The notes under the pieces: model-generated
Databases searched by the model: none
What the model was told of the DNA's origin: nothing
What the model saw: the letters and a program-made list of their open reading frames with translations, nothing else
Translations under genes and position numbers: made by a program
Origin: a virus
Strand: one strand, 5' to 3'
IMG/VR virus record: IMGVR_UViG_3300043395_001531
Coordinates: 1-20,279 of that record
DNA: 20,279 nt
Shown here: piece after piece, positions 2,896-7,721 of the stretch
Position numbering within the stretch: position 1 is the stretch's first letter
How the letters are laid out: the number at the start of each line of letters is the position of its first letter

Positions 2896-3360
2896 TTATT
2901 TGTTTGATCTCCATTCTTTTACTTCATCATTATTATCATGGTCTATAAACCTGTCTTCCACCAATCCAGTTGGATCATAGGTTGAGAATCTAAAGATTAA
3001 CTCACCATCCCTAGTGAGTTCTATTCCATCCTTAGCAGTCTTCTTGATTGAGGACTCATAGTTCTTCTCATTCTCCAGATACTTTTGGATTTCTAGAGGT
3101 ATTATATCACCATCCTCAATCTCACTCTCTAGATACTCCCTTACCACTATCCTTCCTCTGAGAGGTGTGTTGATAATCTGTTCAAGCAACTCAATGTTTG
3201 CTTTCAGGGTGCAGGTTCTGATTTCTGCATTTGCCCACCCCATAGAGTAGTCTATCTGACTCTGTTCTAGGATGATATAACCCTTTCCAGGTTTATTCTT
3301 GAATGGGTTAATCTTTTCTTGTGTTTCTGCGTTAACGCGGATTGTGATTTGATTTTTCAT
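2896..3360 (-). CDS. Hypothetical phage protein, paralogue of the 2125-2640 gene
   Basis: 154 aa beginning MKNQITIRVNAETQEKINPF. Shared blocks with the 171-aa neighbour are the central GRIVVREYLES motif (about residues 89-99), the YESSIKKTAKDGIEL block and the C-terminal FIDHDNNDEVKEWR. Charged residues and the DHDNxDEVKxWR ending are the best conserved parts, so the C-terminus is probably functionally important. No known fold is recognised. Base composition is A/T-rich like the rest of the arm, unlike its paralogue. The start lies in a TCAAATG context shared with the genes starting at 4054, 4407 and 4929. Two hairpins follow the stop. Confidence 0.75.
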   Translation of the reverse strand: MKNQITIRVNAETQEKINPFKNKPGKGYIILEQSQIDYSMGWANAEIRTCTLKANIELLEQIINTPLRGRIVVREYLESEIEDGDIIPLEIQKYLENEKNYESSIKKTAKDGIELTRDGELIFRFSTYDPTGLVEDRFIDHDNNDEVKEWRSNK

Positions 3361-3409
3361 TTGACTTTATTTATTTAATTATTGATTTTTTACTTGGTGA
3401 TGGAATTTA
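3361..3409 (-). repeat. Repeated intergenic spacer and start-context element, copy 1
   Basis: The spacer between the stop of the 3407-4054 gene and the ATG at 3360 nearly repeats the spacer at 4055-4104. On the minus strand both read TAAATTCCA, a C-rich patch, AAAAATCAATAATTA, a run of AAATAAA and TCAAATG. A looser copy lies at 4408-4455. The start-proximal part probably acts as the ribosome-loading region in place of a Shine-Dalgarno sequence. Confidence 0.5.
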
Positions 3410-4054
3410 AAATGGTAAGTTATAAAAGCTAATGTAGTGATTTGGCTCTGTTTCAGCACATGCTACACTATAATGGACAAACTTAAATTTTACATCAAGG
3501 GATGATCTTGAGTAATCATAATTGCTATCTATGTTACAAATATCATATTTAGTCATATCAAATCCTTTTTTCCTCATATACTCGTAAATATGACTATATA
3601 CACTGAACGTATCTCCATCAATTCTATCATCACTTACACAATTGTCTCCATAGAAACGATCATTGCGGACTGCCATTTTAAAGTCATCAAGTTCAGCAGT
3701 TGCTTTACCTGTTTTTAACCATGCATCCTCAAGTCTTTCCTTTAATTTTTCTATCTGATCTTGAAGATTGCTAATTATAGGATTAGCAGAATACTCATAA
3801 TGATTCTTAAAGTTTCTGAGATCTGTCAATTCATCTAGGACATCACTTGCCCTAAATACTTCATCCCATGGATAGTATTTTCTGTATTGGTCATGAAATC
3901 CACCTATGTAGACTTCACCTACCACTGTAAATTTACAGCCAGCATCGTAAGGTTTGCTGATTAACACTACGTCACCTGGCATTGCAGGTTTTCTTTTCTT
4001 CACTAGTTTTCCATTAAGGTAATAGTACCATGGGTTGTTTCTTTTCTTTTCCAT
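3407..4054 (-). CDS. Hypothetical protein with a central coiled coil, 215 aa
   Basis: The product starts MEKKRNNPWYYYLNGKLVKK. Residues about 25-70 are rich in beta-forming segments (PGDVVLISKPYDAGCKFTVVGEVYIGGF), suggesting a small barrel-like domain. Residues about 95-125 (ISNLQDQIEKLKERLEDAWL) look like a coiled coil. The C-terminal 80 residues are Tyr/Asp-rich (SNYDYSRSSLDVKFKFVHYS). I do not recognise the family. The gene sits in a leftward run whose intergenic spacers are near-copies of one another, implying co-expression with its neighbours. Confidence 0.7.
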   Translation of the reverse strand: MEKKRNNPWYYYLNGKLVKKRKPAMPGDVVLISKPYDAGCKFTVVGEVYIGGFHDQYRKYYPWDEVFRASDVLDELTDLRNFKNHYEYSANPIISNLQDQIEKLKERLEDAWLKTGKATAELDDFKMAVRNDRFYGDNCVSDDRIDGDTFSVYSHIYEYMRKKGFDMTKYDICNIDSNYDYSRSSLDVKFKFVHYSVACAETEPNHYISFYNLPF

Positions 4055-4104
4055 TTGATTTGTTTATTTATTAATTATTGATTTTTACGGGGTGTTGGAA
4101 TTTA
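4055..4104 (-). repeat. Repeated intergenic spacer and start-context element, copy 2
   Basis: Nearly the same sequence as 3361-3409, including the plus-strand blocks AATTATTGATTTTTAC and TGGAATTTAA and the TCAAATG start context on the minus strand. Copy 3 at 4408-4455 keeps the AATCAAATG end and a CCACCACC patch, but the middle has drifted. Confidence 0.5.
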
Positions 4105-4407
4105 ATGATTTGACCAGTCAATGTACTGAGCAACTGTAGGAGGGATTTCAATGAATCCCCTCCCAGTTATCATATAGCAAATTTGTTCATCTAAGTCAAT
4201 GATTATATCACCAACAGATGTACTCCTTTTATTTAAGTCAGCGTATGATTTGTTAAAATCATTTTGACATCCTCTAAATGCATGTGGCAATGATTTAGCT
4301 TCAATGTCATAAATGACTTCATATTCATACAAACCTCTTTTGAGGTCATGGTTTAATGCACCACCTACAGGGTGCATGATTCTAAATAATTTTTTGATTT
4401 GTTTCAT
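4102..4407 (-). CDS. Conserved phage hypothetical protein (SVGDII motif), 101 aa
   Basis: The 101-aa product begins MKQIKKLFRIMHPVGGALNH. Near residues 61-90 it contains STSVGDIIIDLDEQICYMITGRGFIEI. This pattern (ST/LSVGD-I/V-I, then a Tyr and GF) recurs in short uncharacterised proteins of many tailed phages. That is a memory-based resemblance, not a search result. No catalytic residues stand out. The stop lies in a repeated intergenic element, and the gene probably belongs to the same transcript as its neighbours. Confidence 0.7.
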   Translation of the reverse strand: MKQIKKLFRIMHPVGGALNHDLKRGLYEYEVIYDIEAKSLPHAFRGCQNDFNKSYADLNKRSTSVGDIIIDLDEQICYMITGRGFIEIPPTVAQYIDWSNH

Positions 4408-4452
4408 TTGATTATTTATTAATGATTATTTGATTTTAAAGGTGGTGGACTG

Positions 4453-4929
4453 TTATTTGTTTACCGTGTGTCTAATGATTGTTGATTTGATTTCTTCCTC
4501 AAGGATGTCAAGTTCATTCTTTTTACCCTCAGTATACATCTTGGTGAGTGCATCAGTACCCCCAACTCTACGTATGAGTCTATCAGCTACTGTTCCTTCA
4601 TACATCATATCATACCAAGCTTGCATGACTGAAGGATATGCACACACTGTAAATGCTAGTTCATAATTGTAATACTCATTTAGGTGAATGCATTCTAGAT
4701 CTTTCACCATTTCTCTGACTTGATCTCTCTTATCAGAGTGACTAGATCCGCTAGACAATACAAACCCTTGGACCATATATTCCTTGGGTTCTGTGTCAAA
4801 CTGTCCTACAGCTTTCACTGTAGTGTCTGATAGGAATGATAGTTTAATCTCTTTGCCTAGTAATAGGGTAAGACGTGATGCAAGGATGCTAACTTCATCC
4901 TGCCATTTATAACCTAAGTAGTTATTCAT
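4453..4929 (-). CDS. Hypothetical protein, 158 aa
   Basis: The product starts MNNYLGYKWQDEVSILASRL and is a mixed alpha/beta soluble protein with no signal peptide or membrane segment. The C-terminal 40 residues (TKMYTEGKKNELDILEEEIK) are strongly helical. No motif was recognised. The ATG at 4929 follows AAATCAA, the start context shared with the genes at 3360, 4054 and 4407. Function unknown. Confidence 0.7.
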   Translation of the reverse strand: MNNYLGYKWQDEVSILASRLTLLLGKEIKLSFLSDTTVKAVGQFDTEPKEYMVQGFVLSSGSSHSDKRDQVREMVKDLECIHLNEYYNYELAFTVCAYPSVMQAWYDMMYEGTVADRLIRRVGGTDALTKMYTEGKKNELDILEEEIKSTIIRHTVNK

Positions 4930-4952
4930 TTGATTTGTTTTTAATTGTTATT

Positions 4953-5270
4953 TTACCTGTTTACTTCATACCAGCTACGTGCTGTATAATTATTTTGCAA
5001 ATACTTGATGATGGGCATGATATACTGCAATTCATCTTCCCAGATATCATTTGTCCAATAGTAATTGCTAACGCTATTCTCTCCATTCTCAAGGGTTTTC
5101 CCCATAGCTAGTTGAAATCCTATTGTATCATGCCAGTTAAATACCCCACCTCCCCAGTGTACAGGATCAATAGGTATGTTTAGGACTTTTTCACAGATGA
5201 GTTCATCTATGTTGATTAGAGACACAGCTTCATTTGTCTCTTTGCTGATTAATTTGAAACAGTTTGGCAT
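4953..5270 (-). CDS. Conserved phage hypothetical protein (MPNCFKL type), 105 aa
   Basis: The product starts MPNCFKLISKETNEAVSLIN, followed by IDELICEKVLNIPIDP, a WHDTIGFQLAMG segment near residues 46-57 and a Tyr/Trp-rich end. The N-terminal C-F-K-L pattern, the IDEXIC segment and W-x-D-x-IGF-x-LA-x-G correspond to a small family of unknown function that I recall from many phages. No active site is known to me. The gene is 15 bp downstream of the Csx16/Csx20-like gene and 23 bp upstream of the 158-aa gene. Confidence 0.7.
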   Translation of the reverse strand: MPNCFKLISKETNEAVSLINIDELICEKVLNIPIDPVHWGGGVFNWHDTIGFQLAMGKTLENGENSVSNYYWTNDIWEDELQYIMPIIKYLQNNYTARSWYEVNR

Positions 5271-5285
5271 ATTGTTATTGTTTAT

Positions 5286-5690
5286 TTAGATTGACATAAA
5301 TTTTACATGCTTAAACTCTGAGACTTTCGTCACTGATCCATCAGGATTATGTTTATCTACAGAAACCCTCTCAGAGTGACTGTATACTAATTCAATATTT
5401 GAATTTCCTAATTGCCTTTCTATTGCTAAGTTCATACCTAGCAGAACTTGAAATGGTTGTGAACCTGCTGGTTGTACAATCCACTTTAGACTGTTTTGTT
5501 TGAACCAATCTATTAGTTCAAATGCTGCAATTGATAACTCTCGTTCATTATCAGCACTCTGACAGATTTTATCAAAGAGTTCGCTGTTTAGACTTTTTAA
5601 GTAAGCAATCTTTGAAATGCCACCAGCTAATAGCTGTTGTTTTTGAACCTCTGTTGGGGTGTGAGGAGAACACCATACAAATATTTCCAT
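5286..5690 (-). CDS. Csx16/Csx20-like protein, candidate cyclic-oligoadenylate ring nuclease
   Basis: 134 aa beginning MEIFVWCSPHTPTEVQKQQL. The layout matches what I recall of the CRISPR-associated Csx15/Csx16/Csx20 group: an N-terminal strand followed by S8-x-H10-T-x-T13-x2-Q16; a YLKSLNSEL segment (30-38); IVQPAGSQPFQVLL (71-84) in place of the family's VQGdfGaty-like loop; YSHSER (103-108); an acidic turn DGSV (117-120); and the ending FKHVKF (126-131). Members of that group have been reported to degrade cyclic oligoadenylates made by type III CRISPR systems. A phage copy would therefore be a plausible anti-defence protein. No cas genes are in the window. The assignment rests on motif memory. 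Alternatively it is a phage hypothetical with the same fold and another ligand. Confidence 0.5.
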   Translation of the reverse strand: MEIFVWCSPHTPTEVQKQQLLAGGISKIAYLKSLNSELFDKICQSADNERELSIAAFELIDWFKQNSLKWIVQPAGSQPFQVLLGMNLAIERQLGNSNIELVYSHSERVSVDKHNPDGSVTKVSEFKHVKFMSI

Positions 5691-5706
5691 AGTTAATTTA
5701 ATTGTA

Positions 5707-5730
5707 GAGGTGGAGTATTGACCCCACCTC
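5707..5730 (-). terminator. Hairpin between lipoprotein gene and Csx16/Csx20-like gene
   Basis: Arms GAGGTGG (5707-5713) and CCACCTC (5724-5730) pair perfectly around a 10-nt loop. The stem lies 10 bases after the leftward stop at 5741. No T-run follows on the minus strand, so it may be a processing or attenuation hairpin rather than a full terminator. Confidence 0.4.
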
Positions 5731-5740
5731 CTGATTGATA

Positions 5741-5893
5741 TTAGTGTTTGTAACGGTTACATTTACCATAGCTTCCCTTCTGAAAGTCTAAGGTTGCCTT
5801 TTGTTTTGCTTTGTGGTAATTAGCATTTCTGCTATTACTCACGCATCCCACCATCATGATGGCAGTGATGCAGATTAGAATTAACTTTTTCAT
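5741..5893 (-). CDS. Small predicted lipoprotein, 50 aa
   Basis: A short gene starting at ATG 5893, two bases after the stop of the 61-aa membrane protein. It encodes 50 aa: MKKLILICITAIMMVGC followed by a polar, basic tail ending KCNRYKH. The MKK start, a hydrophobic core of about 12 residues and MVGC with Cys at position 17 form a convincing lipobox, so the mature protein would be a lipid-anchored peptide of about 34 residues. Its position after three small two-segment membrane proteins raises the possibility of a lysis-related outer-membrane spanin. It is short for that role and the basic tail has no coiled coil, so this remains a guess. It could equally alter the host surface. Confidence 0.65.
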   Translation of the reverse strand: MKKLILICITAIMMVGCVSNSRNANYHKAKQKATLDFQKGSYGKCNRYKH

Positions 5894-5895
5894 AA

Positions 5896-6081
5896 TTATT
5901 CTTCTTCAATTGCGTATACTGCTAAAATCATCGAGATCATTAACATAATTGCCACGTAACCTCCACATGTGACTACATCATGAAATGCAACATTCCAGAT
6001 TATGGAGATAAGACACGCTGGTGTTGAGAAGATGATAGCAACTGCTACCATATACTTAATAACTTGAATTAGATTTTTCAT
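5896..6081 (-). CDS. Small membrane protein with two predicted TM helices, 61 aa
   Basis: The sequence starts MKNLIQVIKYMVAVAIIFST. Two hydrophobic stretches are seen, at about residues 9-30 (YMVAVAIIFSTPACLISIIW) and 40-57 (GGYVAIMLMISMILAVYA), with an acidic tail EEE. It is third in a run of small membrane proteins transcribed leftwards and is followed within two bases by the lipoprotein start. Size and topology would suit a holin, antiholin or superinfection-exclusion protein, but no family is recognised. The start follows a TAATTAAAAATAAACAAAA-type A/T-rich leader. Confidence 0.65.
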   Translation of the reverse strand: MKNLIQVIKYMVAVAIIFSTPACLISIIWNVAFHDVVTCGGYVAIMLMISMILAVYAIEEE

Positions 6082-6100
6082 TTTTGTTTATTTTTAATTA

Positions 6101-6298
6101 TTAGTTTCTGTATTCCTCTAAGAGGTGTGCGATGATCGTTAATGCAGTGATGACACCATATATTGATGCCATGAAATAGCAGAAGTTCCCCAATCTAGGG
6201 GAATCTTCTGAGTATGCCATTAGCGATACAATTGTTAATATCAATGTGATAGTCATCATTACTGCGATGATTTTTTCTGTCATGTTTAATGGTTTCAT
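6101..6298 (-). CDS. Small membrane protein with two predicted TM helices, 65 aa
   Basis: The sequence starts MKPLNMTEKIIAVMMTITLI. Hydrophobic segments span about residues 9-28 and 40-59 (FMASIYGVITALTIIAHLLE), joined by a short charged loop SEDSPRLGN. Its ATG overlaps the stop of the upstream 59-aa gene by one base (TAATG), implying translational coupling. Like its neighbours it is a candidate for a phage membrane protein (holin-like or exclusion), without a recognised family. Confidence 0.65.
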   Translation of the reverse strand: MKPLNMTEKIIAVMMTITLILTIVSLMAYSEDSPRLGNFCYFMASIYGVITALTIIAHLLEEYRN

Positions 6299-6477
6299 TA
6301 CTTTATTGGTTTTAATAATTGATATAATACGTATGTAGACAACATTACTGCTTCAGTGCTTGCTATGTACAGCACTGTGTCTGAGTGCTTTAATCCTGCA
6401 AACTCCATGATGAGTGCTATAGACATTAGTGATACCCACACTAATGCCCCAATTACTACAATTGTTTCTCTTCTCAT
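6298..6477 (-). CDS. Small membrane protein with two predicted TM helices, 59 aa
   Basis: A leftward frame from ATG 6477 to TAA at 6300-6298 gives 59 aa starting MRRETIVVIGALVWVSLMSI. Two hydrophobic segments are seen, at about residues 6-25 and 36-54, and the end is LLKPIK. The start overlaps the upstream stop as ATGA and the stop overlaps the next start as TAATG, so it is coupled on both sides. These junctions are strong evidence that this short frame is real. No family is recognised. Confidence 0.65.
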   Translation of the reverse strand: MRRETIVVIGALVWVSLMSIALIMEFAGLKHSDTVLYIASTEAVMLSTYVLYQLLKPIK

Positions 6478-6635
6478 TTTCTTTTGATTTTAGAGTTGAT
6501 AATGTAAATGATTTCTAATGATTCATCCATTTCAATGGATTCCTCATACTTGAACTTGAAGCTGTGACGCTCTTCCTGCGTCAAGCTTGACCACACTCCC
6601 ATGGTCATAGCTTGATTGTTGGTGTTATTACACAT
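6474..6635 (-). CDS. Hypothetical 53-aa protein at head of leftward operon
   Basis: ATG 6635 to TGA 6476-6474 gives 53 aa beginning MCNNTNNQAMTMGVWSSLTQ, with a soluble charged middle (EERHSFKFKYEESIEMDESL) and a basic end KIKRK. The stop overlaps the next start as ATGA. Internal Met codons at residues 10 and 12 are alternative starts. The EESIEMDESLEIIYIINSKI segment is likely helical. It is the first gene after the long regulatory region 6636-7170. Function unknown. Confidence 0.5.
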   Translation of the reverse strand: MCNNTNNQAMTMGVWSSLTQEERHSFKFKYEESIEMDESLEIIYIINSKIKRK

Positions 6636-6697
6636 ATATTTATTATTATAAATATTACTAACTAAGCTTGGAGGTGGAGGTTGTGTGCATTAGATAC

Positions 6698-6719
6698 ACA
6701 TGTAGTATGTACTAGATGT
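6698..6719. promoter_or_regulatory. Operator-like dyad upstream of the leftward membrane-protein operon
   Basis: ACATGTAGTA (6698-6707), a 2-bp centre and TACTAGATGT (6710-6719) form an inverted repeat with nine of ten positions complementary. It lies 63 bp upstream of the ATG at 6635, a reasonable place for repressor binding. The flanks (TACACA and ACACACAC) add partial symmetry. No regulator gene is visible nearby. Confidence 0.45.
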
Positions 6720-7035
6720 ACACACACCACACTCCCCAGCAGCATGACACACTGCATAACACATATCTTCCCTCACAAAATTTTGAGGTATGCATATGAT
6801 ATGATGCATCACGCTGGATTTGATGGGGGGTGGAGGGTTGACGCGATGAGTGGCGGGGCGTCTGCAGTAGGGATTCCACACATTCACACCCTCATACATT
6901 TTTCAGTCCCTGAGGTAGGGGGGGATGTTCACACATACATTAAAATAGGGGGATGTGTGTAACGGGAGTTCCTAGTGGGGGAAGGGTGTTCCGCAGAAAG
7001 GTGTCCAGTTTTTATTGTAAAAAACTTGACATTTG

Positions 7036-7099
7036 TGCATGAAAAATTTGGAAAAATTCATGCAGATTTTGTCGCATATTTTGCAAACATTTGCGACAA
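7036..7099. other. Two adjacent perfect hairpins next to iterons
   Basis: TGCATGAA (7036-7043) pairs with TTCATGCA (7057-7064), and TTGTCGCA (7069-7076) pairs with TGCGACAA (7092-7099). Each is a perfect 8-bp stem. They sit immediately before the 12-bp tandem repeats and in an A/T-rich patch. Neither has a T-run, so termination is unlikely. Confidence 0.5.
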
Positions 7100-7135
7100 C
7101 TTAATCGGTGACTTAGTCGGTTACTTGTACGGTGA
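7100..7135. repeat. Three tandem 12-bp iteron-like repeats
   Basis: CTTAATCGGTGA, CTTAGTCGGTTA and CTTGTACGGTGA follow each other without spacers, with a degenerate fourth unit (CTTGTAACAAAT) from 7137. The constant positions are CTT and CGGT-A. A stop codon in frame argues against a coding repeat. Iterons like these commonly bind replication initiators or repressors. Confidence 0.6.
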
Positions 7136-7170
7136 TCTTGTAACAAATCCTTAGGTAAAAATGTGACAAC

Positions 7171-7197
7171 AAAAAACCCCAACTAACTGTTGAGGTT
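7171..7197 (-). terminator. Rho-independent terminator of the 8010-7252 operon
   Basis: On the minus strand, AACCTCAAC and GTTGGGGTT (plus-strand arms 7189-7197 and 7175-7183) form a stem with eight of nine pairs around a 5-nt loop. It is followed by a T-run (plus-strand A-run 7171-7176). It lies 55-80 bp after the last stop of the operon at 7252. Confidence 0.75.
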
Positions 7198-7251
7198 TCT
7201 GTCCTGCACATTTGCCACGGTGTAACATCCCAGGTAGCGATCGGGAAACTC

Positions 7252-7455
7252 TTAATTATCTGAAAAGTTGATAATGTCTTTTGTGTCTGATATCTCTACT
7301 CCATAATGCCATTGTTCTGACATGTTAATAGCAAGTTTATAGAGGATACCTCCATCTGCTGTTATTTGGATACCTACAACAATACGCATGTATTGATCAG
7401 GGTCTGTTTTTAGATATACAGCTTGCCCTAGTGTGAACTCAGTTTGAATAGTCAT
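7252..7455 (-). CDS. Conserved small phage protein (FTLGQAVYLKTDP type), 67 aa
   Basis: I choose ATG 7455, giving 67 aa beginning MTIQTEFTLGQAVYLKTDPD, rather than the frame's upstream extension to 7590, which reads through the membrane-protein gene. The ATG overlaps the stop of that gene as ATGA. The pattern FxLGQxVYLKTDPDQ, then RIVVGI, GGILYKLAI and GVEIS, resembles a small beta-rich protein of unknown function that recurs in Bacteroidota phages. It is the last gene of the short leftward operon and is followed by a clear terminator. Confidence 0.75.
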   Translation of the reverse strand: MTIQTEFTLGQAVYLKTDPDQYMRIVVGIQITADGGILYKLAINMSEQWHYGVEISDTKDIINFSDN

Positions 7456-7721
7456 AGTATGTTTTGTATTAGTTGGGTTAATATCTTGGAGGTTGCTAGT
7501 CCCGCAACACTCCCTATCGTCGCCCCCAGGGAGTATAGCACCCTGTCCATCAGAGTACCAAAAGCAATTTTTTTTATGTTGTAACTCCATACCATTGATA
7601 TCATAAATGCTGCAATAATAACGCCTAGGTAAATCTCCTTACTAAGAAAGTATGTGTTGATTGCAATAAAGTAAACTTGAATTGCTCCTGTAATTACCAA
7701 TTTAATCTTCTCGTTTACCAT
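7452..7721 (-). CDS. Conserved phage membrane protein, 89 aa
   Basis: The sequence starts MVNEKIKLVITGAIQVYFIA. Three hydrophobic stretches are seen: about residues 7-25, 31-47 (YLGVIIAAFMISMVWSY) and 62-80 (LYSLGATIGSVAGLATSKIL). Between the second and third lies KKIAFGTLMDRV, a motif I recall from small membrane proteins of Bacteroidota phages and prophages. A holin role is possible, but I know of no proof. The start lies inside the 3' end of the upstream gene (20-bp overlap) and the stop overlaps the next start as ATGA. Confidence 0.75.
   Translation of the reverse strand: MVNEKIKLVITGAIQVYFIAINTYFLSKEIYLGVIIAAFMISMVWSYNIKKIAFGTLMDRVLYSLGATIGSVAGLATSKILTQLIQNIL

Follow-up and report, generated by a model that had tools for sequence, protein, structure and literature searches.

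The window analysed here is the whole 20,279-nucleotide stretch of the IMG/VR virus record IMGVR_UViG_3300043395_001531, and the gene under study, which encodes the protein P0001, lies on its minus strand (Table 1). The open reading frame starts with an ATG at position 5690 and contains no internal stop. On the upstream side the frame stays open beyond this ATG, to 156 codons in total; the ATG at 5690 is favoured over the longer frame because the first strand of the protein then starts where the relatives begin. All of the motifs that the earlier note had picked out are found in the translated frame, i.e., H10-T-x-T-x2-Q16, VQPAGSQPF (residues 72–80), YSHSER (103–108), DG (117–118) and FKHVKF (126–131).

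Table 1. Coordinates of the Csx20-like gene, of its key codons and of the surrounding island in the window
Feature	Position	Strand	Description
Csx20-like gene (P0001)	5286..5690	-	134 aa, stop codon included
H10 codon	5661..5663	-	Invariant His of the loop between beta1 and alpha1, at the CARF motif I position; predicted catalytic/ligand residue, by analogy with CliCsx15 H13 (PMC13148439)
Q16 codon	5643..5645	-	Invariant Gln at the start of helix alpha1
G76 codon	5463..5465	-	AGSQP loop after strand beta3; counterpart of G in QGDFG / GGAP
R108 codon	5367..5369	-	Invariant Arg within YSHSER
FKHVKF motif	5298..5315	-	Residues 126–131, with invariant F126 and H128
Variable accessory island	3361..7251		Small minus-strand genes including the Csx20-like gene; 0.7–1.5 kb in four relatives

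A variable island in a crAss-like phage contig

The TerL, portal and major capsid proteins of the window match crAss-like phage families, TerL being ~25% identical to that of named crAss-like phages and the capsid being nearest (28%) to that of Leptolyngbya phage Lbo-JY46. Among the window proteins scanned, no match to a cas family was found, in accordance with the earlier remark that no cas genes surround this gene, and the contig is that of a crAss-like phage. A weak PADLOC match of the ORF at 3407–4054 to Csx1/Csm6 (E 0.0085) was judged to be noise.

Two conserved genes (2896–3360 and 7252–7590) flank the region and are 3.9 kb apart in the window, and the same interval, taken between match ends, measures 0.73 kb in relative L124, 1.28 kb in L129, 1.27 kb in L130, 1.54 kb in L132 and 3.6 kb in L126. 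This difference in size between relatives places the Csx20-like gene in a variable accessory island, and such islands often house counter-defence genes. Scanning with TerL yielded 80 contigs of crAss-like relatives at 62–85% identity; an HMM search of their available DNA found no Csx20-like gene in any of them, and the gene is therefore dispensable in the lineage. Nor was one found in 32 whole records; this search was run without a separate positive control, although an HMM of the same kind does detect P0001. AcrIII-1 (PF08960), which was sought in 32 relatives as an alternative ring nuclease, was found in none.

The island holds further small minus-strand genes. Three of them (4102–4407, 4453–4929 and 4953–5270) have no significant family match, and only 4102–4407 has a homologue, in one relative (L126). 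The earlier note had proposed 4453–4929 and 4953–5270 as counter-defence candidates, for which their location in the island and the missing family matches are indirect support; all three genes may have an accessory or counter-defence role. Three consecutive small minus-strand ORFs (5896–6081, 6101–6298 and 6298–6477), immediately upstream of the Csx20-like gene, are rich in hydrophobic stretches and probably encode small membrane proteins. Between the minus-strand island and the gene at 7252, the intergenic segment 6640–7010 carries runs of G on the plus strand and only short, dubious ORFs. We note that the minus-strand genes 2125–2670 and 2896–3360 encode paralogue-like proteins, which have in common the pattern REYLES / QEYLES ... 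DGxEL ... DHDN(N/Q)DEVKxWR, are kept in several crAss-like relatives and have no family match.

Profile similarity of P0001 to Csx20

By profile comparison, P0001 and the CRISPR ring nuclease Csx20 are homologues, P0001 being a divergent relative. The NCBIfam model CAS_Csx20 (NF040559) matches with E=2.1e-7 and 31.3 bits, residues 10–132 of P0001 being aligned with model positions 7–122 of 124. A significant match over so much of the protein places it in a Csx20-like superfamily. The curated cut-off of this model is 70 bits; because P0001 scores only 31 bits, it is named Csx20-like and not a Csx20 equivalog. The Csx20 models of PADLOC match at 2e-5 and its combined Csx15/20 model at 2.6e-4, and searches by sequence gave no significant match in Pfam, PHROG or the PDB. 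The earlier note had likened the protein to the ring-nuclease group of Csx15, Csx16 and Csx20; profile search confirms homology to this group and narrows it to Csx20, as neither the Csx15 nor the Csx16 model of NCBIfam matches (Csx15 is absent at E<=5), and an identity as Csx15 or Csx16 is rejected.

As a control, P0001 and 2000 shuffles were scored with three HMMs. The CRISPR-type HMM, built from 31 Csx20 proteins, gives 22.2 bits for P0001 and 12.4 bits for the best shuffle, the signal coming mostly from the C-terminal 36 residues, whereas the HMM of the NLTQH/mobile-element branch gives 43.9 bits (best shuffle 10.5) and the phage HMM 50.6 bits (best shuffle 9.0). P0001 thus falls outside the curated Csx20 family as a divergent variant, and its neighbour is a large branch of stand-alone proteins encoded by mobile elements.

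Conserved residues and predicted fold

In an alignment of 43 family members five positions never vary, and P0001 has the invariant residue at each of them: H10, Q16, R108, F126 and H128 (in one residue listing of the same 43 sequences, the glutamine column is numbered Q19 owing to a gap and corresponds to Q16). Conservation is also high, though not complete, at Y103, D117, G118 and F131 in each of the three groups (CRISPR-type, NLTQH and phage). The C terminus is less well kept: in the 31 CRISPR-type Csx20 proteins the F[KR]HxxF motif is followed by an arginine (100%) and a tyrosine (90%), but P0001 has M132 and I134 instead. Residue 130 is basic in P0001 and in CRISPR-type Csx20, and glycine in the other phage groups. 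In the tree alignment, P0001 is at most 33% identical to any relative, and its branch is 4.5 substitutions long; owing to the length of this branch, its placement within the family tree is not used as evidence.

P0001 was modelled by AF2 from the 43 sequences, and a canonical Csx20 (L016) was modelled in the same way, from the same single alignment, as a control. The P0001 model (pLDDT 79.5, pTM 0.65) has the element order E-H-E-H-H-H-E-H-E-E, with H31–34 as the first short helix, and its first strand leads into the loop that carries H10. The model of the canonical protein (pLDDT 84.5) has its main strands and helices in the same order. A Foldseek comparison of the P0001 model with the PDB gave nothing at E<=0.001 and only weak CARF matches (Cam1 and Csm6, E 0.04–0.3). 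The canonical control fares equally weakly, and cA4-bound Cam1 and Thermus Csm6 are in both lists (E 0.016–0.3), amid other Rossmann-like folds; one viral protein matches P0001 by structure comparison at 1.6e-6. The predicted fold is thus consistent with, but not decisive for, a CARF-like protein.

CRISPR-type and stand-alone relatives

Among 249 genomes from the phylum of a Campylobacteraceae MAG, 30 carry a Csx20 above the cut-off. The profile of the 31 CRISPR-type proteins aligns end to end with that of 46 mobile-element proteins (E=2.4e-15); a comparison of alignments A5 and A1 was discarded, as P0001 is present in both. The two kinds of gene were surveyed for their neighbours. Within 1.5 kb of 21 CRISPR-type genes lie 36 neighbour proteins, including 10 Csx1/Csm6 CARF-HEPN proteins, 5 Cas6 and 7 WYL regulators. 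Around six genomic mobile-type genes (flanks up to 8 kb), the 57 neighbours include methyltransferases, transposases, a single-strand annealing protein, exonucleases and a Mu Gam-like protein, and no type III cas gene is among the 25 defence families listed; one protein listed there as Cas12f/Csx1 has a transposase as its best PHROG match. These results cover the first 25 of 90 and of 78 families, so that rare matches may be hidden. P0001 likewise has no cas family match beside it among the window proteins scanned and lies on a crAss-like phage contig, not in a type III CRISPR locus, as expected for a phage copy.

The closest relatives were collected by tblastn of a phage collection and by scans with alignments A1 and A3. 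Annotated phages found by tblastn are the Manatee Spring circular phage (MW202458), several Fusobacterium phages, Rhodothermus phage RM378 and a Pasteurella phage. All whole proteins tested match CAS_Csx20 and all score below its cut-off, and two plasmid proteins group with them. When three of these relatives were aligned and used for scanning, viral contigs yielded 45 loci and genome contigs 9, most of them with the signatures NLTQH, GGAP and YAFSxR. P0001 used alone against the viral contigs (single-protein scan), or leading alignment A4 against the genome contigs, found no relatives.

The NLTQH...GGAP branch comprises L017–L061 (viral contigs), L065–L073 (genome contigs) and L009, L010 and L204 (plasmids), all of them stand-alone; every member tested falls under the curated Csx20 cut-off, and the annotated records call the protein hypothetical. 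Another phage contig, IMGVR_UViG_3300026382_000071 (L016:5722-6105), bears a canonical Csx20 (163 bits) near a terminase-like gene, with no CRISPR genes among the nearby ORFs. A degenerate homologue (L203:3995-4369, and about 95 Enterobacterales plasmid records) has tyrosine in place of H10 and lysine in place of R108, keeps Q16 and H128, and is possibly a sponge or an inactive copy. A tentative proposition, which we judge slightly less likely than not, is that P0001 lies at the edge of a large Csx20-like branch of phages and plasmids, most of it unannotated, which would serve as a general defence against cyclic oligonucleotide signalling, in crAss-like phages among others, and be far commoner than the phage Csx20 so far reported.

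Proposed function and its alternatives

The earlier note had stated that members of this group are reported to cleave cyclic oligoadenylate (cOA), which holds for Csx20: the enzyme degrades cA4 in vitro with multiple turnover, and cA3 fully at high enzyme concentration (PMC12409355). Bacteria use Csx20 to destroy the molecule by which type III CRISPR immunity raises the alarm, and since the phage carries a divergent cousin of this enzyme, it probably silences that alarm. P0001 is most likely an anti-type III factor that degrades (or binds) cOA, with cA4 as the main ligand. Put more specifically, we think it probable that P0001 is a small stand-alone CARF-like (derived Rossmann) Csx20 homologue that degrades cOA, most likely cA4, against type III CRISPR.

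Once made in the infected cell, P0001 would act as a dimer and bind cOA, most likely cA4, released by a presumed type III CRISPR complex of the host. The bound cA4 would be cut to linear products, with H10 of motif I assisting the attack of the ribose 2'-OH on the scissile phosphate, and R108, H128 and the glycine loop holding the phosphates; the AGSQP loop at G76 is the predicted phosphate-binding loop (motif II-like). Csx1/Csm6-type effectors would then stay inactive and infection would proceed. The ring nuclease CliCsx15 requires its motif-I histidine, H13 (PMC13148439), motif I of Crn1 positions the 2'-OH for in-line attack (PMC10018336), and Csx20 is matched to Crn1 by DALI (PMC12409355). 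AcrIII-2 offers a precedent in which a viral protein makes use of a cOA-binding domain acquired from the host; its own paper calls an anti-CRISPR role plausible but unproven (PMC12751052). Against the proposed function of P0001 stand its low score on the curated Csx20 model, the replaced Arg and Tyr at the C terminus, the very long tree branch with low identity to all relatives, and the weak PDB fold matches, although these were as weak for the canonical control.

Two alternatives keep cyclic nucleotides as the ligand. P0001 might sequester cOA without cutting it, as does the related orphan PfCsx15, a sponge for cA4 with little if any ring nuclease activity (PMC13148439); the great divergence of P0001 and its missing C-terminal Arg and Tyr are in line with this. 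We nevertheless hold it unlikely, since P0001 keeps the invariant His and Arg, the counterparts of which (H10 and R108) are lost in the Enterobacterales plasmid homologue, and since Csx20 turns over cA4 repeatedly (PMC12409355). It is also improbable, in our judgement, that the target is a cyclic nucleotide of another system, e.g., the cA3 of CBASS, and not the cA4 of type III. Mobile-element homologues are present on enterobacterial plasmids, whose hosts seldom have type III CRISPR. The action of concentrated Csx20 on cA3 likewise speaks for such a target, but in type III loci Csx20 and the other extrinsic ring nucleases accompany cA4 effectors (PMC12409355), and the enterobacterial homologue, having lost the key residues, says little about P0001.

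The remaining alternatives leave only ancestry or chance. A house-keeping or regulatory phage protein of Csx20 descent would fit with relatives of which most stand-alone ones are unannotated and several adjoin phage replication genes; it is very improbable, given that the gene is dispensable among the crAss-like relatives and that the retained residues are those common to the enzymatic family. Chance resemblance of a short unrelated ORF, suggested by the low identity in the tree alignment and by the empty Pfam, PHROG and PDB searches, is scarcely credible and is contradicted by the HMM results: an independent curated model matches over nearly the full length, the scores lie well above those of the shuffles, and the five invariant residues are kept.

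If P0001 is active, crAss-like phages would have to be counted among the ring-nuclease-bearing viruses, which would imply that type III CRISPR signalling presses on these very abundant phages. P0001 also points to a larger stand-alone Csx20-like branch on mobile elements, hidden by the curated Csx20 cut-off, which offers a set of candidate anti-CRISPR or anti-CBASS proteins.

Comparison with known systems

P0001 resembles Csx20 (NF040559) in homology over nearly the whole length, in the predicted order of strands and helices, in the invariant H, Q, R, F and H and in FKHVKF; it differs in scoring 31 bits against the 70 required, in lacking the C-terminal R/Y, and in being a lone phage gene, whereas Csx20 genes neighbour those of Csx1 and Cas6. 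Csx20 has been reported in 4 of 28,114 phage genomes, which the text does not name (PMC12409355). With these P0001 shares a Csx20-related phage gene and a presumed anti-CRISPR role; P0001 itself lies on a crAss-like phage contig and is very divergent, and the four phages may overlap the relatives found here. AcrIII-1/Crn2 (DUF1874, PF08960), a small phage-encoded cA4 ring nuclease and anti-CRISPR, is likened to P0001 in function by analogy but is a different family, P0001 having no Pfam match to PF08960.

Like Csx15, including the orphan sponge PfCsx15, P0001 is a small, putatively CARF-superfamily protein with a histidine at the predicted motif I position, and it matches the PADLOC Csx15/20 model; unlike Csx15, it scores better on Csx20 models and is not matched by the NCBIfam Csx15 model at E<=5. 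By HMM, the nearest large group is that of the stand-alone NLTQH proteins (43.9 bits; e.g., that of Rhodothermus phage RM378, unannotated), which have a mobile-element context and bear the NLTQH and GGAP signatures that are absent from P0001. Phage ring nucleases, and even phage Csx20, are already known; what is new is a divergent member in a crAss-like phage, together with indications that phages and plasmids share a larger branch of stand-alone Csx20-like proteins.
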